Shown here one piece after another: positions 371 through 10,415 of a stretch of DNA of 64,000 nucleotides (position 1 is the first letter of the stretch; the number at the start of each line of letters is the position of its first letter). The position numbers and the translations under genes are program-made. Source of the DNA: Sphingomonas sp. HDW15A (GTDB lineage: Bacteria; Pseudomonadota; Alphaproteobacteria; Sphingomonadales; Sphingomonadaceae); the NCBI RefSeq assembly GCF_011301715.1, contig NZ_CP049870.1, forward strand, positions 1,364,001-1,428,000, written 5' to 3'. The notes under the pieces are model-generated. The model was not told the origin of the DNA and searched no databases. It saw nothing but the letters and a program-made list of their open reading frames with translations.

Positions 371-2404
371 TCAGCCTTCGATCTTGCTGAAATCCGCGAC
401 GGCGTGAACGGCGTCGCGGAAGCGGGCGAGCAGATTGAGTCGACGGGCGCGAACGCCCGCGTCTTCGGCATTGACCGTCACCTTATCGAAAAAGGCGTCG
501 ATCGGCGCGCGCAGCGACGCGAGTGCGGTCATTGCCGAGGTGAAATCCTCGACTTCGATCGCGGCGCGGGCCTTCGGCGCGGCGGCATCCAGCGCGTCGG
601 TTAGCGCCTGCTCTTCCGCTTCCACGCCAGACGCCGAGGCAGCGGATGGGTCCCACTTTTCCTTCTTGAGGATATTCGCGGCGCGCTTGTAACCGGACAG
701 CAGGTTGGTCCCCTCGCTCGTCTCCACGAATGCCTGCAGCGCCGTCACCCGCGCAAGCAGGCGGACGAAATCGTCCTCGCCGCCCAGAGCGAACACAGCG
801 TCGATGAGGTCGTGACGGACACCCGCCTCGCGCTGCTGAACCTTCAAGCGGTCGGCGAAGAATTCCAGCAAGTCGCGCGAATTCAGGTCAGCGCCTTCGT
901 CACCAAGACCTGCCTTCGCAAGCTCAAGCGCATTGCCCAGGCGGATCCGAGTGCCGTTTTCGAGGATGGTCAGGATTGACTGGAGCGCGGCGCGACGCAG
1001 CGCAAACGGATCCTTCGACCCGGTGGGGCGAATGCCGCGTGCAAAGAATGCGCAGAGGGTGTCGAGCCGATCGGCCAGCGCAACCGCAGCCGGGATGCAG
1101 CCTTCGACCGTGGCCGCATATTGCTGCTTGAGCGCCGAAACCACCCCTGGCTTTTCGCCGCCGCGCTCAGCGTAATAGCCGCCCATGACGCCCTGCAGCT
1201 CAGGGAATTCGCCAACCATCCCCGTCGCAAGGTCGGCCTTTGCCAGAAATCCGGCACGCCGCGCCGTCTCAGGGTCGCGCTCCGGAAAATAGCGCTCGGT
1301 CAATCCAGCGGCGAGTGTCGCAACGCGATCTGCCTTGGCACGGAGCGAGCCCATGCCCTCGTAAAACAGCATACCCTCAAGCTTCGGCAGATGATCTTCC
1401 AGCGGGACCTTGAGATCCTGCTCCCAGAAAAAGCGAGCGTCCGAGAGCCGCGCGGCGAGCACGCGGGCGTTGCCGACGCAAATCGCCTCGCCGCCGTCAT
1501 TGGCGTCGATGTTGGCGACGCAGACGAAATTCGGCGCAAGCTTCTCGTCGCCGCCGCGCATGACGAAATACTTCTGGTTGAGGCGGGCGGTGAGCTGGAT
1601 CACCTCCTCGGGAACGTCGAGGAAGCTAGGATCGAACGAGCCCAGCAGAGGCACCGGCCATTCGGTGAGCCCGGCGTTCTCGATGACCAGCCCCTCGTCC
1701 TGCACCAGATAATAGCCGGCATCTTCGGCAAGCTCGTTGGCGCGGCTGCGGACGATCGCCTCGCGCTCTTCCTGATCGACGATGACGTGGCAGGCGCGCA
1801 GCTTTTCGACATAGTCGTGTGCGCCGCCGATGGTGATCGGGCCGGGATGGTGGAAGCGGTGCCCGACGGTCGCGGCGCCGCATGTCACTCCCTCGATCTC
1901 GACAAACACGATGTCTTCGCCAAGCAGTGCGACGATCGAATGGAGCGGGCGAACCCAGCGCAGCGACGCTGTTGAGGCGGACGGCGCACCCCAGCGCATC
2001 GACTTCGGCCAGGGGAAATCGCGGACGATCTGTGCAACGCGGTCGGCCAGGACCTCAGCCGTCGCGCGGCCGGGCCGCTCGATGACAGCGAACCAGGTGC
2101 CGTCGCGGTCCTGAAGCTGATCCTGGGTAAGCCCCGTCTTGCGCAGGAACCCTTCGAGCGCCTGCGGCGGCGCCGACGTCCGCGGTCCCTTCAGTTCCTC
2201 GCTCACTGCGTCCGTGGCGAGCGGCAGCCCGCGCGCGATCAGCGCGAGGCGACGCGGCGTCGAGTATGTAACAATGCCTTCATGGGCGAGGCCGGCGGCC
2301 TGAAGCCCTTCCGCGAACATGCGCGCAAGGTCGTTGCGGGCCTTGGCCTGCATCCGCGCCGGGATTTCCTCGCTGAGGAGCTCAAGCAGAAAATCGGCAC
2401 TCAC
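371..2404 (-). CDS. glyS: glycyl-tRNA synthetase beta subunit
   Basis: This is the large subunit of the bacterial alpha2beta2 glycyl-tRNA synthetase, which charges tRNA-Gly with glycine in the cytoplasm. The 677 residues match the usual length. The N-terminus ([14 protein letters not shown]) is the classic GlyS opening, and the motif [11 protein letters not shown] in the second half is family-typical. The C-terminal region corresponds to the DALR-like anticodon-binding domain. It starts 4 bp inside the end of glyQ (ATGA overlap), so the two subunits are translationally coupled in one operon, the standard arrangement. No truncation is seen. Confidence 0.98.
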
Positions 2405-3258
2405 GCTTCATACCCCTTGTGTGCCATCCAAGCGGCGCAAGCGCCCTTCGCGAGATCGCGGACCCGGCCGATATAGGCCTGACGTTCGGCCACGGAGATG
2501 ACCCCGCGCGCCTGAAGTGTGTTGAACACGTGGCTAGCCTTGATCGCCTGCTCGTAGGCGGCGATCGGAACGCCCGCCTTCAGGCTATTCTCGCACTCCG
2601 CAGCGGCTTTCCTGAAAAGGTCGAACAGCGCGTCGGTATCGGCGACCTCGAAATGCCATTTCGACATCTGCTTTTCGTTTTCGAGGAAGACGTCCCCGTA
2701 GGTCACGCCTTCGTTGTTGAAAGCGAGATCGAAGACATTGTCCTTGCCCTGAATGTACATTGCGAGGCGTTCGAGCCCGTAAGTCAGCTCGCCGGAGACC
2801 GGCTTGCAGTCGAACCCGCCGACCTGCTGGAAATAGGTGAACTGCGTGACTTCCATCCCGTCGCACCACACTTCCCACCCGAGGCCCCAGGCGCCCAGAG
2901 TCGGGCTTTCCCAATCGTCCTCGACGAATCGAATGTCGTGCTTCAGCGGATCGATCCCAATGGCGTCGAGGCTGCCGAGATAGAGCGCCTGAAGGTCGGC
3001 CGGGCTCGGCTTCAGCATCACCTGATACTGGTAGTAATGGCCGAGCCGGTTCGGGTTCTCGCCATAGCGCCCGTCGGTCGGGCGCCGGCAGGGCTGGACG
3101 TAGGCCGCCTTCCAGGGATCCGGGCCAAGCGCGCGGAGAACCGTCGCCGGATGGAACGTCCCTGCCCCCATTTCGAGGTCGTAGGGCTGGAGAATCACGC
3201 AACCCCGGTCGCCCCAATATCGGTGCAAGGTGAGTATCAGGTCCTGGAAGCTCAGCAT
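2401..3258 (-). CDS. glyQ: glycyl-tRNA synthetase alpha subunit
   Basis: This is the catalytic alpha subunit of heterotetrameric glycyl-tRNA synthetase. I chose the ATG at 3258 ([15 protein letters not shown]), giving 285 residues, because it aligns with the usual GlyQ start. A longer open frame reaching 3330 adds 24 residues that do not look conserved. Family motifs are visible: [31 protein letters not shown] and [18 protein letters not shown], all part of the class II aminoacyl-adenylate site. It is first in the glyQ-glyS operon. The upstream intergenic region is shared with a divergent XRE regulator and carries repeated operator-like sites. Confidence 0.98.
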
Positions 3259-3311
3259 CGTGCCGCGGGCTTTGGCCGATGGACAGGCGTTGGGCAAGCC
3301 ACGGGCACCAA

Positions 3312-3388
3312 TGTCAGGATATGGCGACAATTTGTCAGGTAGTATTGACAGTCAGCATATCATTACGTTATGTCATGTTAACCTGACA
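3312..3388. promoter_or_regulatory. three copies of TGTCA-N8-TGACA operator-like palindrome
   Basis: Three 18-bp sites share the same arms and spacing. They lie at 3312-3329 (TGTCA...CGACA, one arm mismatch), 3333-3350 (TGTCA...TGACA) and 3371-3388 (TGTCATGTTAACCTGACA, palindromic over nearly its full length). They sit between divergent glyQ and the XRE gene. The first two start 21 bp apart (two helical turns) and the third 38 bp further on. A TTGACA at 3345-3350 could be the -35 box of a promoter reading toward the XRE gene. I infer autoregulation by the XRE protein; control of glyQS is also possible. Confidence 0.55.
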
Positions 3389-3410
3389 CGAAATCGGTCG
3401 GAGATGAGGT

Positions 3411-3620
3411 TTGGAAAATCGACTGCGCGTGCTTCGCGCCGAACGCGGATGGAGCCAGGCGGAGCTTGGCGGCCGGATTGGCGTGTCCCGCCAGGCGGTC
3501 AACGCGATCGAGACTGGCAAGCACGATCCGTCGCTTCCCCTCGCCTTCCGACTGGCCCGGCTGTTCGAGCTGAAAATCGAGGAGATCTTCGATGACGGGG
3601 GTGACAATGACCAAGGGTGA
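3411..3620 (+). CDS. small XRE-family helix-turn-helix regulator
   Basis: This 69-residue protein is almost entirely one HTH_3 (Cro/CI-type) domain. Its helix pair reads SQAELGGRIGVSRQAVNAIETGK, and the Pro-Ser-Leu-Pro-Leu-Ala-Phe stretch is typical of the minimal YgzD-like regulators. It has no ligand or dimerisation domain beyond the HTH core. The start is a TTG with a GGAG about 8 bases upstream; no ATG fits better. It overlaps the next gene, which encodes a membrane protein. Small XRE plus membrane protein is a common two-gene arrangement. It probably represses its own promoter through the three palindromes upstream. Confidence 0.85.
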   Translation: MENRLRVLRAERGWSQAELGGRIGVSRQAVNAIETGKHDPSLPLAFRLARLFELKIEEIFDDGGDNDQG

Positions 3621-4037
3621 AGGCGAACTTTTGGAAAACCGCAGCCGCCGCAAGTTCTGGCGTGTCGTCGGCTTCATTACCGTCGCCGGGATGATCGTCG
3701 GCGCGGTGACCGGTTTCTTCGGCGGAATTAACGACGTCCCGATCGAGGAGGTGTTCACAACAATTCCCGATTGGGGCGTGATTGCCCTGCTCGCCTTCGC
3801 CCTGATGACTTTCACCTGGGCTGCTGGGCATTTATGAAGACGATCGACGAGGTCGAACTAGCAGATAATCTGTGGGGTTCGACCGTGAGCTATTACGCCT
3901 ACGCGGTACTGTTTCCGTCCTGGTGGGTGCTCGGCCGGGCGGACATTACGCCTGAACCCAACCACTGGATCATTTTCTTTGTCTCACTGGCCGCTGGAAT
4001 GGCGGTCTACGGCTATCGCAAGTGGCGAGCGCGATGA
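3592..4037 (+). CDS. small integral membrane protein, apparent frameshift near 3826
   Basis: Two overlapping frames together look like one 148-residue, four-helix membrane protein of unknown function. The first (3592-3837, 81 aa) has two helices and ends ...TWAAGHL. The second continues from 3834 with an acidic linker (KTIDEVELADN) and two more helices, ending YRKWRAR. Adding one G to GGG at 3826-3828 fuses them into ...WAAGAFMKTIDEVELADN. Alternatively they are two genes coupled through ATGA at 3834-3837. I favour the fusion because nine other genes here show the same defect. The start has GAGGAG 6 bases upstream. It overlaps the XRE gene by 29 bp, so they share an operon. Confidence 0.6.
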
Positions 4038-4087
4038 GCTTGGAAGTCAGCCATCATTCACAACAACGAGCGCTTTCTAGGGGAGTC

Positions 4088-4990
4088 ATGACCATGCGTT
4101 TTCTTCGTTCGCTTACCGCATCCGCAGCCGCGCTGCTGATCGCCCAGCCAGCTTTGGCCCAGGCCAAGCCTGACCTCGACCCGGCCGTCTGGCTGGTCAA
4201 GGACGCGGACACGACCATTTACCTGTTCGGCACCGTTCACGCCCTCGACGGCAAGGGCGACTGGTTCAACGACGAAGTGAAGGCGTCGTTCGACGCTTCG
4301 CAGGAACTGGTACTGGAAATCATCACCCCGGAAGACCCGGCGGCGGTCGCGCCGCTAGTCAAGAAGCACGGCATCGACACCAGCGGCAAAACGCTGACGT
4401 CGAAGCTTTCGCCGAAGCACCAGGCGATCATGGCCGAGCGCCTGAAGACGTTGGGAATGCCGGCCAATGCGCTCGACATGTTCCGCCCCTTCTTCGCGGC
4501 GATGACCCTGACCGTGATCGACATGCAGGCGATGGGCATTGACCCGAACAGCGGCGCTGAAAAGGTGCTGACCAAGGCGGCCAAGGACCGCAAGATCACC
4601 ATCGGCGAGGTCGAATCGATGGAGCAGCAGATGATGATGCTGAACGCACTCGACGAAAAGGAGCAGGTCCGCCTGCTCGAAAAGACGCTGGAGGAATCGA
4701 CCGAGGCCAAGGAAACGCTGGGCAAGATGATCGCAGCCTGGGGCAAGGGCGACGCCGAGGGCGTGGCGTCGGTCCTCAACGAAACCAGCAAGGAGAGTCC
4801 GGCGCTCTACAAGTTGCTGCTGACGGACCGAAACAAGGCCTGGGCCGAGTGGGTCGACAACCGCCTCGACAAGCCGGGAACGGTATTCATGGCGGTGGGC
4901 GCCGGCCACCTCGCCGGACCGGACAGCGTTCAGCGCTTCCTTAAGGATCGCGGGATCGCCAGCAGCCGGATTTCCGCACCAGCCAATTGA
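4088..4990 (+). CDS. TraB/GumN-family secreted protein
   Basis: This 300-residue protein is exported. A signal peptide (RFLRSLTASAAALLIAQPALAQA) is followed by the TraB/GumN domain (COG3735). Family hallmarks are present: the N-terminal IYLFGTVHALDG motif and the C-terminal FMAVGAGHLAGPDSVQ motif, whose conserved His and Glu residues are thought to form a TIKI-type metalloprotease-like site. I chose the ATG at 4088, which has AGGGGAG just upstream; an in-frame ATG at 4094 is also possible. A second family member follows 200 bp downstream. Family biochemistry in bacteria is poorly known, so the substrate is unknown. Confidence 0.88.
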   Translation: MTMRFLRSLTASAAALLIAQPALAQAKPDLDPAVWLVKDADTTIYLFGTVHALDGKGDWFNDEVKASFDASQELVLEIITPEDPAAVAPLVKKHGIDTSGKTLTSKLSPKHQAIMAERLKTLGMPANALDMFRPFFAAMTLTVIDMQAMGIDPNSGAEKVLTKAAKDRKITIGEVESMEQQMMMLNALDEKEQVRLLEKTLEESTEAKETLGKMIAAWGKGDAEGVASVLNETSKESPALYKLLLTDRNKAWAEWVDNRLDKPGTVFMAVGAGHLAGPDSVQRFLKDRGIASSRISAPAN

Positions 4991-5016
4991 TCGAATTGTC
5001 TACGGTCAAAAGCGAG

Positions 5017-5044
5017 CGGCGCGTCCTAAAGGGGCGCGCCGTTT
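5017..5044 (+). terminator. intrinsic terminator after first TraB/GumN gene
   Basis: Ten-base-pair GC stem (CGGCGCGTCC at 5017-5026, GGGCGCGCCG at 5032-5041, one G-T pair) with a 5-base loop, then a short TTT tract. It lies 27 bp after the stop codon. The remaining DNA up to 5197 shows no gene. Confidence 0.6.
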
Positions 5045-5196
5045 GTCCATCTGAGTGGCGCAATGGCCACGCCCTACCAACAAATGCCGATAGCCGCCTC
5101 GGCTCATCGCATTCATCACATGTTTAACCCGTTGATTACCTTGACTGGAGCATAAGGTCTGTCAGTTTCGGCAAGGCATCAACCCGGGGGGATGAG

Positions 5197-6074
5197 ATGC
5201 TTCAAAGGCTGAGTTTCCTCAAGGGCCCAAGGGCCCGTCGACAGATCGGCGGCCTCGCCTTCGCGGGCTACTTGCTAGCGCGGCGCCCCTCCTGGCGCGG
5301 CCCGCCTTGCCCGATCCCGCAGCGTCGCGGCCAGCAGCAGGCCCGGCGATGTGGGCGATCAGTGATGAGGACACGACCATCTTCCTATTCGGAACCTTTC
5401 ACGCGCTCGATCGCGACACAGGCTGGTTCAGCAACATCGTCCGCGCTGCCTTCGATCACTCCGAGGAGCTGGTGCTGGAAACAATCGTGCCGAGCGACCC
5501 GGCCGAACTGTTCGCCTCCCTGAGCCGACAGTCGCTGACGGGTGAAGCGAAAGCCGGCCAGCCGGTCATCGCGACGAGCCGGCCGAACTCCGGCTTCGTC
5601 GAGACCTCGACCCAGGCCATGTCCGCCGGAAGGTCGGTGGGCATGAGCGTCGATCATGGCGCCGACTCCGTTCTTCGCCGCGAAGCCGAGTCGGAGGGAA
5701 AGCGAATCGGCGGCCTGGAGAGTTTCGACTTCCAGTTGGCGATGTTCTCGTCCCTGCCCTCGCCGCCCCAAACCGCTGACGCGGGAGGCAACGGGAGCGA
5801 TATGGCCGCCGCGATGCAGACCATGAAAATGGCCTGGAAACGCGGGGATTCCTCCCAGATCGCTGCCGTACTGGGAACGATGGAGCAGCAGTCGCCGGAA
5901 ACTTATCGCCGCCTTTTCGCCGAGCGCAACACGCGCTGGGCGGAATGGGTCGCGCGGCGCATGGAGCGCCCGGGCGTGGTGTTCGTCGCCGTCGGATCGG
6001 GTCACCTCATAGGCCGCGACAGTGTGCAGCAGCGCCTGACCGAACGCGGGTACCAGCCGGTCCGCGTCAGCTAG
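5197..6074 (+). CDS. second TraB/GumN-family secreted protein, apparent frameshift near 5265
   Basis: The TraB/GumN core is open from 5307 to 6074 (AMWAISDEDTTIFLFGTFHAL ... FVAVGSGHLIGRDSVQ), but in that frame only a TTG start without a signal peptide is available. The ATG at 5197 begins a signal-peptide-like sequence with paired Arg (RARRQIGGLAFAG) in the other frame. Adding one G to GGG at 5265-5267 joins them into a 292-residue preprotein whose hydrophobic run ends LLASAAPLLARPA. It is a tandem paralogue of the gene ending at 4990. Its middle region is shorter and more divergent. A sequencing error is likely; a decaying paralogue is the alternative. Confidence 0.75.
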
Positions 6075-6192
6075 AAGGACGAACCCCCACTGCCAACTTG
6101 CTTCCACGGCACGCTTTCCCTATAGGCGCGCGCAGCCCGGCCGTGATCATCCCTGGAGGCGTGGCGGGCGTAACCGATAAAGGAAACGTGAA

Positions 6193-6879
6193 ATGAGCGA
6201 ACAGCTGACGCTGCCCGCCGAAGCGCGCGACCGGGCTGGCAAGGGAGCCTCCCGTGCACTGCGCCGCGAAGGCCGGGTCCCCGCCGTGATCTACGGCGAC
6301 AAGAAGCAGGCCCTCTCCGTCCATGTGGAGGAGAAGCTGCTGAACAAGATGCTGCAGACGGGGCACTTCATGAACACCGTCGTCATGATCGACGCCGGCG
6401 GAAAAACCCACCGGACGCTGCCGAAGGACGTACAGTTTCACCCGGTCACCAGCCGCCCGATCCATGTCGACTTCCTGCGAATCGGCGAGCACAGCACTGT
6501 CACCGTCGCGATCCCGGTGCGCTTCGACAACGAAGAAGCATCGCCGGGCCTGAAGCGCGGCGGCGTGCTCAACGTCGTCCAGCACGACATCGAGCTGGTG
6601 TGCGACGCCTCTCACATCCCGGATGAGATCCACGTCGATCTCACCGGTCTCGATATCGGGGACTCGATCCACATCAGCCAGGTGACCCTGCCCAAGGGCG
6701 CCAAGCCGGCGATCGACGACCGCGACTTCACCGTCGCCACCCTCGTCGCCCCGTCGGCGATGAAGTCGGAAGAAACCGAAGCGGCGGAAGCCGGCGAAGT
6801 CCCGACCGTTGGCGAAGAAGACACCGACGCTGGCGAAGGCGAAGCCAGCAGCGAGAGCGAAGGCGGCGAGGAGGCCTAA
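6193..6879 (+). CDS. rplY: 50S ribosomal protein L25 (Ctc form)
   Basis: This ribosomal protein binds 5S rRNA. The 228 residues comprise the N-terminal L25 beta-barrel ([26 protein letters not shown] is the signature, residues about 9-35), the extra C-terminal beta domain of the Ctc/TL5 form (about 100-190), and an acidic Glu-rich tail. Such tails are common in alphaproteobacterial L25. GGAAACG lies before the ATG. It is followed by an intrinsic terminator and then pth. The rplY-pth pairing is conserved in many bacteria, which supports both calls. Confidence 0.97.
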
Positions 6880-6909
6880 GCGCACTCCCGCACCTTCGAG
6901 GGCAAGAGC

Positions 6910-6939
6910 GCCCGTCCCGATTGCGGGGCGGGCGTTTTT
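6910..6939 (+). terminator. intrinsic terminator between rplY and pth
   Basis: Stem GCCCGTCCCG (6910-6919) pairs with CGGGGCGGGC (6924-6933, one G-T pair) across a 4-base loop and is followed by GTTTTT. It probably attenuates transcription from rplY into pth. Confidence 0.8.
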
Positions 6940-6957
6940 GTTGAAGGTACGCTCACC

Positions 6958-7526
6958 ATGCAAATCTGGGTCGGCCTTGGAAATCCCGGCGCGCAGTATG
7001 CGCTGCACCGACACAATGTCGGCTTCATGGCGGCCGACATCATCGCCGAGGTGCACGGCTTCGGCTCGTGGACGAAGAAGTTTCGCAGCTTGATTTCAGA
7101 AGGTCGGATCGGCGGGCAAAAGATCCTACTGGTGAAACCACAGACCTACATGAATGACAGCGGCGACGCGGTTCAGCAGGCGCTTCGCTTCCACAAGCTG
7201 AGTGTGGATTCGCTCACCGTTTTCCACGATGAGCTCGATCTCGCGCCCATGAAGGTCAAGGTGCGCACCGGCGGGGGCTGGCGGGACATAACGGCCTCCG
7301 CTCGATCAACGCATCGCTCGGTCCGGAGTTTCGGCGCGTGCGGATCGGCATCGGTCACCCGGGAAACAAGGCGCTCGTCACCAACTATGTGCTGGGCAAC
7401 TACGCCAAGAGCGAGATCGAAGCTCTGTCCGATATGCTGGGCGCCATCGCCGCGGAGGCGGAGTGCTTGGCAATTGGCGACGACGTGCGCTTCATGAGCG
7501 ACGTTGCACTGAGGCAGCAACAATGA
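6958..7526 (+). CDS. pth: peptidyl-tRNA hydrolase, apparent frameshift at 7273-7277
   Basis: This essential enzyme frees tRNA from peptidyl-tRNAs dropped by ribosomes. The first part matches Pth: [20 protein letters not shown] holds the catalytic His, and [13 protein letters not shown] and HDELDL are family motifs. The reading frame then breaks just after KVRTGGG and resumes one frame over as ...[22 protein letters not shown]. Adding one G to the GGGGG at 7273-7277 restores the conserved [12 protein letters not shown] and a normal 189-residue enzyme. Because the gene is essential, a base-call error is more likely than a real mutation. Its repaired stop overlaps the next ATG (ATGA, 7523-7526). 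Confidence 0.93.
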
Positions 7527-8110
7527 GGCATTTGTTCGCTACGCCGCTCTACGAAGATTGTCTGGCGGATGAGGCGCTGCTCGCGGAGCTCGCACATTCC
7601 ATCCGCAGCCTCGCCGAGGACGACGAGGCGGGGAAGCGCTGGAGCCGCGAACACGCCTACAAGGGCTACACCAGCTACGCATCGCTCGACGATTTGCCGA
7701 GCAGAGACCCGGCCTTCGCGGACCTTAAGCGCGCGCTCAACCGTCACGCTGCCGCCTTCGCCAAGGCGCTGGGTTGGGCGGTGAAGCCGAAGCTCGACAG
7801 CCTGTGGGTCAACATGCTGAGGGGCGACGGGCATCATGGCGCCCACATCCACCCGCACGCGATTCTGAGCGGCACGCTTTATGTCGAAACACCGAAGGGC
7901 AGCGGCCCAATCCGCTTCGAGGACCCGCGCCTTCCGATGATGATGGCGGCGCCGATGCGTGTCCCGGATGCGCCGGAGCAGCTCCGGCAGTTCGTTGATG
8001 TCGAGCCAGAGCCGGGCCTGCTTCTGATGTGGGAAAGCTGGCTGAGGCACGAGGTGAGACCGGGCAAGGGCCGTGGCGAGCGGCTGAGCGTCAGCTTCAA
8101 TTTCGCGTAA
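7523..8110 (+). CDS. putative 2OG-Fe(II) oxygenase (TIGR02466 type)
   Basis: This 195-residue protein resembles the TIGR02466 family of putative 2-oxoglutarate/Fe(II) oxygenases. [18 protein letters not shown] contains candidate iron-binding His residues, and a distal His-x(n)-Arg segment (WLRHEVRPG...RLSVSFN) matches the jelly-roll C-terminus with its 2-oxoglutarate-binding Arg. The start ATG at 7523 overlaps the repaired stop of pth; a longer open frame from 7463 runs inside pth and is not needed. Its substrate is unknown. The last 14 bp overlap the end of the convergent DUF1971 gene. Confidence 0.82.
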
Positions 8111-8372
8111 GCGCGGGCTGTTCAGAGTAGAATTCGACCTGCATTCGCATCGGGCCGACCGGCTCCACCCAGTGAGTCTCCTGTGGGGCGATGAGGCCCG
8201 GCGAGTCCGCGCTCAGTTCCTGGGTCAGGCGACCGGGAAGGTGCAGCAGCAGCTTCCCTTCAAGCACCCGGACGATGCCCCACGCACCCGCCTTTGTGCG
8301 ATGCTCCCGCCGCAACGCGTCAGGCAAAGACTGGGCGTCGAAGATTGGAGTGGTTCGATAAGGCTTCGTCAT
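8097..8372 (-). CDS. DUF1971 / YeaR-TehB-like cupin protein
   Basis: The 91-residue protein has the DUF1971 fold: a short cupin-like domain (residues about 25-85: [16 protein letters not shown] ... [17 protein letters not shown] ... MQVEFY) like E. coli YeaR and the N-terminal part of some tellurite-resistance TehB proteins. E. coli yeaR is induced by nitrate and nitric oxide under NsrR and NarL. Here it is the last gene of the putative NO-response operon, overlapping the alternative oxidase gene by 4 bp. Its biochemical role is not established. Function within the NO response is inferred from context. Confidence 0.83.
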
Positions 8373-9055
8373 GCCGCCAGCCGGATTCCGCTTTGATGCG
8401 GCGGCGACGGCGCGATCCGCTCCTGATCGACCGGAAGCCCGGCGAGCTCGTTGGCGAAGCCGTGATTGACGTCGCGGTGGTGCGCCTCATCAGCCCGAAC
8501 GACGAGCACCACGTCGCGCAGGGTCGCACCGTCAGGCAGGCCCCAGTAGCGCCGGGCGATTTCCGGTGCGGGCACGTTGGGCGAGCGGCCTTCGTCGATT
8601 TCCTTCAAATATAGAGTGTAGCTGAGCACCGCTTCCTCCTCAAAATAGCCGACGACACGGTGGGCGGTGCGGGCGCTCACGAGGTAGAGCGCGAAGAAGG
8701 CGACATAGAAAACCCATTGAACAGCGAGGATCACGAAACGCTCGAACACGCTTGGCTTGGCGACCTCGATGAACGTCATGAGATGCATCCGCTCATTTTC
8801 CGCTTCGTCCATCAGAGTACGGATCCAGCCCTTGTCGTCGCACATTCGGCGGAGGCATTGGAGGTGGTTGATGGTGGCGCCGACCATACCCGGGACCGCC
8901 GCGACCGTTTCGAGCACGATCGCGCGGTGCCCGTAACGCTTGGCGAAGAACGTGTCCGCGCAGAAACGCAGGGTCTTGGTGAAGCCGTAAGCGATACGGT
9001 CCGAAGCGCCCTTGGGCCGATGATGAACGCTGGAATCAACAAACGGGGCAGACAT
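8369..9055 (-). CDS. aox: alternative oxidase (cyanide-insensitive ubiquinol oxidase)
   Basis: This 228-residue di-iron protein oxidises ubiquinol directly with O2 without pumping protons. All four signature stretches are visible: [33 protein letters not shown] and [12 protein letters not shown], supplying the Glu and His iron ligands. A hydrophobic region ([19 protein letters not shown]) gives interfacial membrane binding. GAGGAG precedes the ATG. Alternative oxidase resists nitric oxide and cyanide, which inhibit haem-copper oxidases. Here it follows a globin gene and lies near a divergent nsrR, so NO-triggered expression is a reasonable inference; Vibrio fischeri aox is controlled by NsrR in this way. 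Confidence 0.95.
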
Positions 9056-9067
9056 CTGACAACTCCT

Positions 9068-9448
9068 CTATGCGGCGGCGGCGGCGCGGGGTTCGGGCTT
9101 GAAGAACAGGCCGAGTTGCAGGCTCTCGGAAATACGCTCGGCCTTTGCGATGACGGCAGCCGCTTCGTCCGGATGAAGCTCTTCGCGGGCCGTGCACTTC
9201 CAGATCGCAATCCACCGCTCGAACATTCGCGGCTCGATCGACGCGACATGGCGCAGGTGCGCGGCCATCGGGCTGCCCTTGTAGCGGCCGCTGCAGTTCA
9301 TGACGGAAGACCAGAACGCGCCAAGCTTTCGAAGGTGCTCGGGCCAGTCCTGAACGGCCGAATTGAACAGCGGGCCGATCGACTCGTCGGAGCGAACCTT
9401 CGCGTAAAAGCGGCCAACGAGCCGCTGGAGATCATCGTCCGCAATCAT
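9068..9448 (-). CDS. group III truncated haemoglobin
   Basis: The 126-residue sequence matches the TrHb3 (group III) truncated globins. Features are LVGRFYAKVRSDESIGPLF, WPEHLRKLGAFWSSVM, GRYKGSPMAAH and the following region with the proximal His candidate (HLRHV), then FERWIAIWKCT. Related Campylobacter Ctb is induced by NO via a dedicated regulator and affects respiration under low oxygen. Here the gene overlaps the upstream membrane gene by 4 bp (ATGA) and precedes the alternative oxidase by 12 bp, so all are co-translated. A role in binding or detoxifying NO or O2 is inferred. Confidence 0.92.
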   Translation of the reverse strand: MIADDDLQRLVGRFYAKVRSDESIGPLFNSAVQDWPEHLRKLGAFWSSVMNCSGRYKGSPMAAHLRHVASIEPRMFERWIAIWKCTAREELHPDEAAAVIAKAERISESLQLGLFFKPEPRAAAAA

Positions 9449-9882
9449 AGATTCACCATCGCGACGATGCCGATGCAGAGCACGGCGAAGGCGAGCAGGA
9501 CGGGGACGACGAACATCTGCACGAGGGCCCCGGCACCGGACACCGGCCCCGTATAAGTCTGCATCCCCTGATCGAGGAAGCGAAGCAGGCTGGGCCGGTC
9601 GCGTGTCTTCCTCTCTTGCTTCAAGAAGATCGCCGGCACTGAGAAAAACGCGGCCAGGAATACAAGGTCCACAGCGATCATGAATGGTCCCGCTCCCGCA
9701 TTGGCGATCGTCAGCGCGAACAATGCGACGATCATCACATAAACACCGACAAGTAGCGCCCCAACCGATGCAGGAACATCCGGCACCGCGGTTTCCGGCT
9801 TCGGATTTGGCAATATCGTGGCGAGCGCGCTCGGATCGACGAGATCGAAAGTCTGCGGCCTATCCAGCTGTTCGTGACGCAT
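9445..9882 (-). CDS. unknown three-helix membrane protein in NO-response operon
   Basis: This 145-residue protein is not one I can name. After a polar N-terminus of about 40 residues there are three predicted membrane segments: ALLVGVYVMIVALFALTIA, FMIAVDLVFLAAFFSVPAIF and a C-terminal one ending LAFAVLCIGIVAMVNL. The loop between helices 2 and 3 is basic and polar (LKQERKTRDRPSLLRF). It is the first gene of the operon reading away from nsrR, and its stop overlaps the globin start. Its position suggests a role in the NO or respiratory response, but nothing in the sequence shows a catalytic or haem site. Confidence 0.75.
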   Translation of the reverse strand: MRHEQLDRPQTFDLVDPSALATILPNPKPETAVPDVPASVGALLVGVYVMIVALFALTIANAGAGPFMIAVDLVFLAAFFSVPAIFLKQERKTRDRPSLLRFLDQGMQTYTGPVSGAGALVQMFVVPVLLAFAVLCIGIVAMVNL

Positions 9883-9947
9883 TGTTTGGCCCTCCCTGGC
9901 CCGACTCAGAAATCATGTACTGGGAGAACATCTATTAGCGGCTGGAA

Positions 9948-9972
9948 AATCATGCAACAAAAATATATGATT
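9948..9972. promoter_or_regulatory. candidate NsrR operator
   Basis: A 25-bp imperfect palindrome, AATCATGCA-N7-TATATGATT (7 of 9 arm positions match), lies 5 bp upstream of the nsrR ATG in the A+T-rich gap between nsrR and the divergent globin/AOX operon. Its size and A+T-rich character fit Rrf2/NsrR operators. A second related half-site (AATCATGTA at 9911-9919) lies closer to the operon start. NsrR binding here is an inference. Confidence 0.5.
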
Positions 9973-9977
9973 ATGAA

Positions 9978-10415
9978 ATGAAGCTCACCCGCTACACCGA
10001 TTACGCCCTGCGCGTGCTGATGCACCTGGCCGTCCAGCCACGACAGCTGACTTCAATCAGCACCATCGCCCGGTCCTATGGAATTTCGCAGAATCATCTG
10101 GTGAAAGTCGTCCAGGACCTTCGCGTTGCCGGGTTTGTCGAGGCTGCCCGAGGCCGGACCGGCGGAATCCGATTGGCCCGCCCGCCCGAGGAAATCCGGC
10201 TTGGAGAAGTTGTTCGTCACACCGAAGAGGGCTTCGACCTGGTCAATTGCGCAAGCTGCCTGATCGCCCCGGCTTGCGCTTTAACCGGGGCCCTTCATCA
10301 GGCACTCGGGGCGTTCATGGCCGTGCTGGATGGCTACACAATCGCCGACCTCACCAATACGCGCTCCGAAGCCTTGCGCAGACTGCTTGCGATCCCGGGC
10401 GCGCAAGCGGCATAG
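9978..10415 (+). CDS. nsrR: Rrf2-family NO-sensing repressor NsrR
   Basis: The 145-residue protein starts KLTRYTDYALRVLMHLA, the NsrR/Rrf2 winged-helix signature, with a recognition-helix region ISQNHLVKVVQDLR and the wing GRTGGIRLARP. Three Cys in NCASCLIAPAC (C-x2-C-x5-C) match the position of the NsrR iron-sulphur ligands, though the first gap is shorter than in E. coli (C-x4-C). The tail (LDGYTIADLT) is also NsrR-like. NO destroys the cluster and lifts repression. It is divergent from the globin/alternative-oxidase operon with an operator-like palindrome between them, the expected layout for a local regulator. Confidence 0.9.
   Translation: MKLTRYTDYALRVLMHLAVQPRQLTSISTIARSYGISQNHLVKVVQDLRVAGFVEAARGRTGGIRLARPPEEIRLGEVVRHTEEGFDLVNCASCLIAPACALTGALHQALGAFMAVLDGYTIADLTNTRSEALRRLLAIPGAQAA

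Follow-up and report, generated by a model that had tools for sequence, protein, structure and literature searches.

An NsrR-type regulator divergent from membrane protein, truncated globin, alternative oxidase and DUF1971 genes in Sphingomonas sp. HDW15A: a probable NO-responsive respiratory operon

We analyzed a window of 64,000 nucleotides from Sphingomonas sp. HDW15A and found, at positions 8097–10415, a five-gene locus that probably (about 0.7) represents a nitric oxide (NO)-triggered "stay-breathing" operon, combining NO handling (genes M, G and D) with an NO-tolerant quinol oxidase (gene A). Gene content, active-site residues of the alternative oxidase (AOX) and the globin, operator-like sites and recurrent linkage support this reading at the sequence level. 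All five genes of the compact NsrR/globin/AOX/YeaR-like locus proposed in a preliminary description were confirmed, together with its overlaps and 12-bp gap:

9978..10415, plus strand: R, Rrf2-family, NsrR-type regulator (PF02082, 124 bits)
9949..9971, no strand assigned: operator A candidate, nsrR side, ATCATGCAACAAAAATATATGAT (1 mismatch to WWSATGYN9RCATSWW)
9912..9934, no strand assigned: operator B candidate, operon side, ATCATGTACTGGGAGAACATCTA (exact pattern match)
9445..9882, minus strand: M, 145-aa membrane protein (three long helices in AlphaFold)
9068..9448, minus strand: G, group III truncated haemoglobin, 126 aa (PDB 2ig3, E = 1.8e-14)
8369..9055, minus strand: A, alternative oxidase, 228 aa (PF01786, 282 bits)
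8097..8372, minus strand: D, DUF1971 protein (YeaR-like/TehB N-terminal-like), 91 aa (PF09313, 69.8 bits)

R is divergent from M-G-A-D, and the two NsrR-like operator candidates lie in the intergenic region. M/G and A/D each overlap by 4 bp, and the 12-bp gap separates G from A.

The best PDB match of R was NsrR 5n07 (65.4 bits, E = 4.8e-17). The earlier label of NsrR is plausible, but the score of R in the NCBIfam NsrR model (140.8 bits) is below the cut-off of 182, and we therefore describe R as NsrR-type rather than as NsrR. The RirA model gave 133.1 bits (cut-off 193), and the NsrR cut-off was reached by none of the nine regulators scanned. In several of these, the RirA score was nearly equal to or above the NsrR score (RirA higher in loci L144, L126, L167 and L283; NsrR higher in window R, L273, L277 and L288), and an Azospirillum Rrf2 protein scored poorly in both models. 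R contains three cysteines for an Fe-S cluster (Cys91-X2-Cys94-X5-Cys100) in a loop shorter than that of 5n07, a 2-5 spacing found in 6 of 83 regulators. In the 83-row tree, R belongs to a seven-row clade with other G-, A-, D- or hmp-linked regulators (support 99/90).

The NsrR-type palindromic operator consensus served for comparison of the intergenic sites. Operator A was the best-scoring site with a matrix learned on other promoters (p = 0.03), and operator B scored badly in the same matrix (−9.8 bits); the two are 37 bp apart, a spacing identical in L144. The strict operator pattern, which was written with operator B in view, matched twice across the 2.34 Mb genome, and its reversed control had no match. 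Upstream of 13 other regulators, our own choice and mainly AOX- or hmp-linked, it was present in eight cases and absent in five. The sole other genomic match falls within an open frame of 271 aa, so the strict pattern gave no second target, as a wider regulon would require, in the 2.34 Mb source genome. In a palindrome-only operator test, the window did not differ significantly from its shuffles (99/100 equally good).

A exceeded the PF01786 cut-off of 22.7 by far, matched trypanosomal AOX 3vv9 (E = 8.9e-56) and is single-copy, with one match in the genome. Residues E49, H91, E140, E190 and H193 were invariant in 12 rows, and E88 was changed in one other protein; window A retains four Glu and two His, which we take to be the di-iron ligands. 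Two COX1-type genes (haem-copper oxidases) are present as well. In other organisms, AOX is reported to be an NO-insensitive quinol oxidase.

The assignment of G as a group III truncated haemoglobin was borne out, with the Campylobacter protein 2ig3 as closest solved relative (next match E = 0.012) and key residues kept: Y15, H38, H64 and W79, presumably the proximal and distal residues, were invariant in 14 rows. The Pfam Bac_globin model, which is general and not group III-specific, gave 17.7 bits (below the cut-off of 21). Plasmid relatives of G, among the matches listed, were 51–60% identical; most carry the name group III truncated hemoglobin, and some are annotated as TatC or hypothetical; a G match was absent from 59 of 71 genomes of the genus. 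Excerpts of one study report that a globin 64% identical to Ctb reacts with NO (rate 9.4e5 per M per s, 20 °C) and, when overexpressed, complemented an E. coli hmp mutant; they also report that deletion of the H. pullorum truncated globin left NO sensitivity unchanged, as cited there for C. jejuni (PMC5577044). The lack of an NO-sensitivity phenotype in these two deletions counts against the NO reading, as does the missing G match in most genomes of the genus.

D scored 69.8 bits against a cut-off of 23.1, with PDB matches to the TehB entries 3m70 and 3dl3 and a likeness to E. coli YeaR at the family level; H24, K27, G29, W31 and H67 were invariant in 27 rows. For M, the AlphaFold model placed long helices at residues 38–62, 65–89 and 116–144 (mean pLDDT 76.5, pTM 0.55), in agreement with the three-helix membrane protein previously suggested. 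No Pfam or NCBIfam model matched M at E ≤ 1, and 135 proteins, M itself counted, were homologous at E ≤ 0.001; alignment with M of G-M-D operons revealed invariant Y48, G112, Q122 and P127 (48 rows). M points to an unnamed membrane-protein family, often alongside G and D; M itself had no match at E ≤ 0.01 among 72,556 plasmid records.

The preliminary description had suggested a search for conserved co-occurrence, and linkage was indeed found in 196 genomes of the order: G lay within 3 kb at 40 of 44 D places, and G and/or D within 3 kb at 15 of 36 A places (neither at 21), the A linkage being spread over seven genus labels. One AOX row (G030, a 76-aa match in a 1312-aa frame at E = 4.7e-4) was left out of this count. 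By our estimate, a gene placed at random in a 3–4 Mb genome would come this close to another ~0.2% of the time; the linkage counts thus led us to reject a chance gene order. Clusters held 44 of 80 G places in these genomes; 14 globin clusters contained AOX, whereas 16 G-M-D and 12 G-D clusters did not. The exact order M-G-A-D occurred in the window only, among the 196 genomes and 174 loci, and 164 deduplicated loci yielded 36 different gene strings (single genes included), with shuffled order and lost members. Both locus tallies are biased, because most loci were selected on the presence of G, A, D or M; the 196-genome count and the outside-family AOX count are less so. Outside the family, A linkage was rare (4/36 places), in a count restricted to globin rows with E ≤ 1e-10 (21 weaker rows removed); four partial AOX rows were kept in the AOX listing. 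The named-genome scan covered the best 80 of 123 confirmed loci, and 10 plasmid records were examined (AOX matched 22 records, globin 181).

The gene orders found included R-G-M-D, A-D-G-M, R-G-A-D-hmp (conjugative plasmid) and A-G-nirK. A conjugative plasmid of Sphingomonas paeninsulae carries R-G-A-D-hmpA with a NorB-type gene close by, and Rhizorhabdus wittichii pSWIT01 carries AOX-REC-G-D-"nitric oxide dioxygenase" beside a PAS kinase/LuxR-type pair; both share the G, A, D core with the window but lack M and have different or extra regulators and haemoglobins. Swit_5299 is the only gene of the pSWIT01 cluster mentioned in the excerpts of the RW1 paper (PMC4123721). Further afield, we observed Rrf2-AOX-G-nirK in Azospirillum, AOX-TehB (with DUF1971)-Rrf2 in Legionella adelaidensis, and in Chelatococcus an AOX gene adjoining pseudoazurin with nirK near.

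The combination is a variant, NO-responsive aox, truncated-globin and DUF1971 genes being already known separately; our searches of open-access literature gave no bacterial operon that unites AOX with a truncated globin, which does not prove that none has been described. In E. coli, yeaR-yoaG places a DUF1971 gene under NsrR/NO control, like the setting proposed for window D; to our knowledge it has another partner gene and no linked globin or AOX. According to excerpts of a regulon study, Vibrio fischeri aox is an NsrR-regulon member, as proposed for window A, although these excerpts do not mention linkage to a group III globin, M or DUF1971, and the Legionella pneumophila glbN-lpg2536 operon, the sole NsrR target there, is an NsrR-controlled truncated-globin operon that differs from the window in pairing a cyanoglobin with a ferredoxin reductase, without an oxidase (PMC1274295).

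A close likeness with a recorded NO response is the SGRAN_3393–3396 region of Sphingopyxis granuli TFA, which also has a divergent nsrR. Published excerpts report SGRAN_3394–3396 as the most NO-induced operon (142–229-fold up with DETA-NO), the divergent nsrR as 5-fold up and aox (SGRAN_1792) as also NO-induced; they call SGRAN_3394 "preprotein translocase subunit TatC" and describe the operon as protein traffic (PMC6472365, PMC7713065). Sphingopyxis granuli NBRC 100800 carries R-G-M-D, and a Sphingopyxis relative in UniRef is named "Preprotein translocase s...". SGRAN_3394–3396 is thus apparently G-M-D, an identity taken from the NBRC 100800 sequence, and the protein-traffic description apparently arose because the globin was misnamed TatC. 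Unlike the window, this operon has no AOX gene, and its regulator falls in another clade (NBRC 100800 sequence). That the NO induction was measured on this other operon weighs against extending it to the window.

Under the NO-triggered reading, R would hold the operators in the divergent promoter when NO is absent, repressing itself and M-G-A-D, and NO damage to its Fe-S cluster would release repression. AOX would then continue quinol oxidation with O2 while NO blocks the haem-copper oxidases; G would consume or bind NO, most likely by O2-dependent conversion to nitrate, M would perhaps hold G near the membrane, and D might be a small helper. A more specific version, in which M docks G (and D) at the inner membrane such that NO is destroyed beside the quinol oxidases while AOX carries electrons, appears doubtful at present. 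The hmp, norB-like and nirK neighbours, the operator-like sites and the TFA response favour the NO-resistant respiration module of the preliminary description, but "self-contained" was too strong, because the M-G-A-D operon includes neither a globin reductase nor an NO reductase.

There is an even chance that these are independent NO-stress genes, held together by a shared regulator and a mobile cluster only, with G, M and the oxidase lacking functional contact. This alternative fits most of the NO-triggered reading and conflicts with it only over docking and any cooperation. The shuffled order and member loss among the 164 loci agree with it, as do the AOX-G-D clusters on conjugative plasmids, whose co-transfer alone could preserve clusters; against it stand the M/G and A/D overlaps in the window and those of G with D at other loci (e.g. 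L123, L130 and L139), and such overlapping frames suggest coordinated dosage, though not contact.

An iron or Fe-S/oxidative-stress operon, with a RirA-like R, and with AOX and a peroxidase-type G relieving stress while haem enzymes are iron-starved, is improbable. The similar RirA and NsrR scores, all below cut-off, would suit it, as would the peroxidase activity reported for a truncated globin of Roseobacter denitrificans (PMC4319818); however, NO genes (hmp, nirK, norB-like) adjoin in several relatives, the operator-like sites fit ATGY-N9-RCAT, R is closest to NsrR among PDB entries, and the presumed sister operon in TFA is strongly DETA-NO-induced.

It is very unlikely that G captures O2 and passes it to a low-affinity AOX, with M docking and NO as inducing signal only. 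In favour of this, AOX is counted among low-affinity oxidases in excerpts of PMC6431628, a title cited by PMC5577044 has the C. jejuni group III globin "implicated in oxygen metabolism", and G and A are adjacent in several gene orders; against it, G and D are missing within 3 kb of 21 of the 36 AOX places in the order. Group III globins generally release O2 very slowly, which would suit an O2 donor poorly. With 28 G-D or G-M-D clusters lacking A versus 14 globin clusters containing it, the earlier proposal of an O2 hand-off from globin to oxidase is unsupported, as is any special service of the one to the other, and no linkage pattern supporting such transfer was found in the 196 genomes.

The NO-triggered reading joins AOX, truncated globin and DUF1971, whose bacterial roles are unsettled, in a single module that recurs next to NO-linked genes and in part on conjugative plasmids, and offers an explanation for the most NO-induced operon of S. 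granuli TFA. If the docking version were true, the locus would be a respiratory NO-immunity cassette in which parts and regulators can be exchanged and whose core of globin, oxidase and DUF1971 also travels on plasmids. Group III globins and DUF1971 proteins thereby gain a testable setting.

The operon and its divergent regulator gene comprise the following features, named hereafter by letter:

9978-10415, divergent from M-G-A-D: R, Rrf2 regulator (NsrR-type)
9445-9882, minus strand: M, membrane protein, first operon gene counted from R
9068-9448, minus strand: G, group III truncated globin, second operon gene
8369-9055, minus strand: A, alternative oxidase (AOX), third operon gene
8097-8372, minus strand: D, DUF1971 protein, last operon gene

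The M/G, G/A and A/D spacings are −4, 12 and −4 bp, and the end of D shares 14 bp with a 2OG-Fe(II) oxygenase-domain gene that converges on it (7484-8110). The host genome (single contig, 2.34 Mb, 99% complete; the window spans its positions 1,364,001-1,428,000) gave one AOX match and, in a COX1 search, two COX1 enzymes, one of which we read as cbb3-like because a cytochrome-c-like subunit comes next.

Alignment revealed that the AOX keeps its di-iron residues, and residues 9-202 align with trypanosomal AOX in a PDB comparison. G scored below the general Pfam globin cut-off; its far best match among PDB entries was the Campylobacter group III globin 2ig3, and Tyr15, His38, His64 and Trp79 are kept in the alignment. 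Pfam assigned D to DUF1971, with two His invariant across 27 aligned rows. An AlphaFold model of moderate confidence presents M as a three-helix membrane protein; its fold search returned no match at E ≤ 0.001, and it received no family assignment. Tyr48, Gly112, Gln122 and Pro127 are the only residues common to 48 aligned rows of M, and a conserved haem/metal ligand set is therefore not apparent. A second M subfamily (~140-160 aa, same TxTG...Q..L.LP motif) lies away from globin genes, as the centre ORFs of Sphingomonadaceae loci L003-L006, L008, L009, L011 and L012. In two order genomes the position of M, right behind the globin, is taken by a 147-aa hydrophobic protein (L121 3425-3868; L122 3400-3843), unmatched by the M profile and, for the L122 copy, without a Pfam match.

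The preliminary description suggested a self-contained NO-resistant respiration module. Clusters drawn from G, A, D and M recur in the order, class and genus. Across 196 order genomes, we found M in 61, AOX in 37 (36 AOX places once row G030 was dropped), globin in 76 and DUF1971 in 42. Clusters with members within 3 kb (a prime marks a reversed gene) were G-M-D (16), G-D (12), A-G-D (8), A-G (2) and G-A-D (2), with M-G-A-D (the window), A-D, G-M, A'-G-D and M'-G seen once each; M (54), G (36), A (21) and D (3) also occurred with no partner within 3 kb. In the class (357 genomes), G adjoins D at 14/29 D places, and G or D adjoins A at 5/39 A places; outside the host's own family, A stands beside G or D at 4/36 places under three family labels. 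Within the genus, 12/71 genomes had a globin match (10/53 among better genomes), in the arrangements A-G-D, G-A, G-M-D and A-D-G-M. G was present in 144 of 164 loci left after duplicate removal, a selected rather than random set, accompanied by R in 82, D in 89, M in 57, A in 33, and M and A together in 7. Across these loci the set of genes is thus mostly preserved, whereas their order and the regulator differ; among the 196 order genomes, M-G-A-D was seen only in the window.

The A-D-G-M order was seen in two genus relatives as well as in Citromicrobium bathyomarinum, Tsuneonella suprasediminis and an uncultured sphingomonad. It adjoins a gene for a 515-aa protein, the counterpart of a PAS histidine kinase in Qipengyuania. 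A receiver-like protein follows AOX in several of these loci (so named in RW1, without a Pfam match). In two Qipengyuania loci (L193, L194; ~950-7060), AOX, receiver-like protein, DUF1971 and globin genes lie directly upstream of Crp-type regulator and COX1 genes, with a PAS histidine kinase divergent (Pfam on L193 only). In another locus (L178, the same as L263), R-G-M is followed by an AOX match of no more than 70 aa (5004-5214), which seems to be an incomplete or decayed oxidase gene.

Several loci are plasmid-borne and, by neighbours such as hmpA, nirK and a NorB-like gene, point to a link with NO; 5/10 examined plasmid records are typed conjugative in PLSDB. A Sphingomonas paeninsulae plasmid carries R-G-A-D-hmpA plus a NorB-like gene. 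On Rhizorhabdus wittichii RW1 plasmid pSWIT01, a PAS kinase and a LuxR-type regulator precede A, REC, G, D and a globin, where G is named TatC and the last globin nitric oxide dioxygenase; a second plasmid with an RW1-like locus names its regulator FixJ. Further plasmid arrangements were Rrf2-A-G-nirK in Azospirillum (Rrf2 scoring only 38 bits on the NsrR model), G-D-hmpA-FTR1-GST-AOX, and A-TehB-Rrf2 in Legionella adelaidensis, with the DUF1971 domain within TehB.

In Sphingopyxis granuli TFA, nsrR (SGRAN_3393) is divergent from SGRAN_3394-3396, reported as the operon that responds most strongly to anaerobiosis or DETA-NO and assigned to protein traffic, with SGRAN_3394 as TatC. DETA-NO raised its genes 142- to 229-fold, against 213-fold for the lone gene ytfE; TFA aox rose 5-fold (RNA-seq) and 70-fold (qPCR) on addition of NO under anaerobic, nitrate-free conditions (PMC6472365, PMC7713065). 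We conclude that SGRAN_3394-3396 probably correspond to G-M-D, because S. granuli NBRC 100800, the same species, has R-G-M-D and UniRef names a Sphingopyxis G a preprotein translocase. Several records annotate sphingomonad group III truncated globins as TatC or preprotein translocase subunit, for example L167 4001-4492, CP000700 Swit_5297 (L274 6081-6464) and, in the literature, SGRAN_3394. The window operon differs from S. granuli R-G-M-D in regulator clade and in having A. In the regulator tree, R falls among G/A/D/hmp-linked regulators (7 rows, support 99/90), whereas R-G-M-D regulators form a separate clade (59 rows, support 100/99); the published NO response is therefore a cousin's, not that of the window operon, in which an M gene joins the AOX-type set. 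The three Cys of R follow the spacing CX2CX5C, which occurs in 6/83 regulators.

The 95-bp R/M gap contains two palindrome-like candidate operators 37 bp apart, A on the R side (9949-9971) and B on the operon side (9912-9934). Operator B matches WWSATGYN9RCATSWW exactly, and operator A with one mismatch. The strict pattern occurs at two places in the host genome, the second within an open frame; at ≤2 mismatches the 64-kb window holds 22 sites vs 9.8 expected, so mismatched matches alone mean little. Because the window site and an E. coli consensus both guided the wording of the pattern, the window match is not independent, whereas those at other loci are. Among a chosen set of 13 other regulators, it lies within ~250 bp upstream of 8 (locus L144 has two copies, also 37 bp apart) and is absent upstream of those of L146, L136, L128, L278 and L277. 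The weaker tests are in disagreement: a matrix learned on other promoters, whose common, related motif has GGTAT half-sites, gave p = 0.03 for the window via operator A and scored operator B at −9.8 bits, and a symmetry-only palindrome test on the window was negative.

There are separate precedents for NsrR-controlled NO-defence operons, for NsrR-controlled aox and for NO-induced truncated globins. The open-access literature searched yielded no earlier description of a recurrent module with M and D, partly on plasmids, nor an earlier reading of SGRAN_3394-3396 as G-M-D. The NO chemistry of group III-type globins is mixed: PMC5577044 reports that one such globin reacts with NO and that its overexpression complements an hmp mutant, yet truncated-globin deletions gave no NO phenotype. 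Judged from sequence, RirA-type iron control of the operon is possible. The most economical reading is an operon released by NO, whose products would both lower NO and include, in AOX, an NO-tolerant quinol oxidase.
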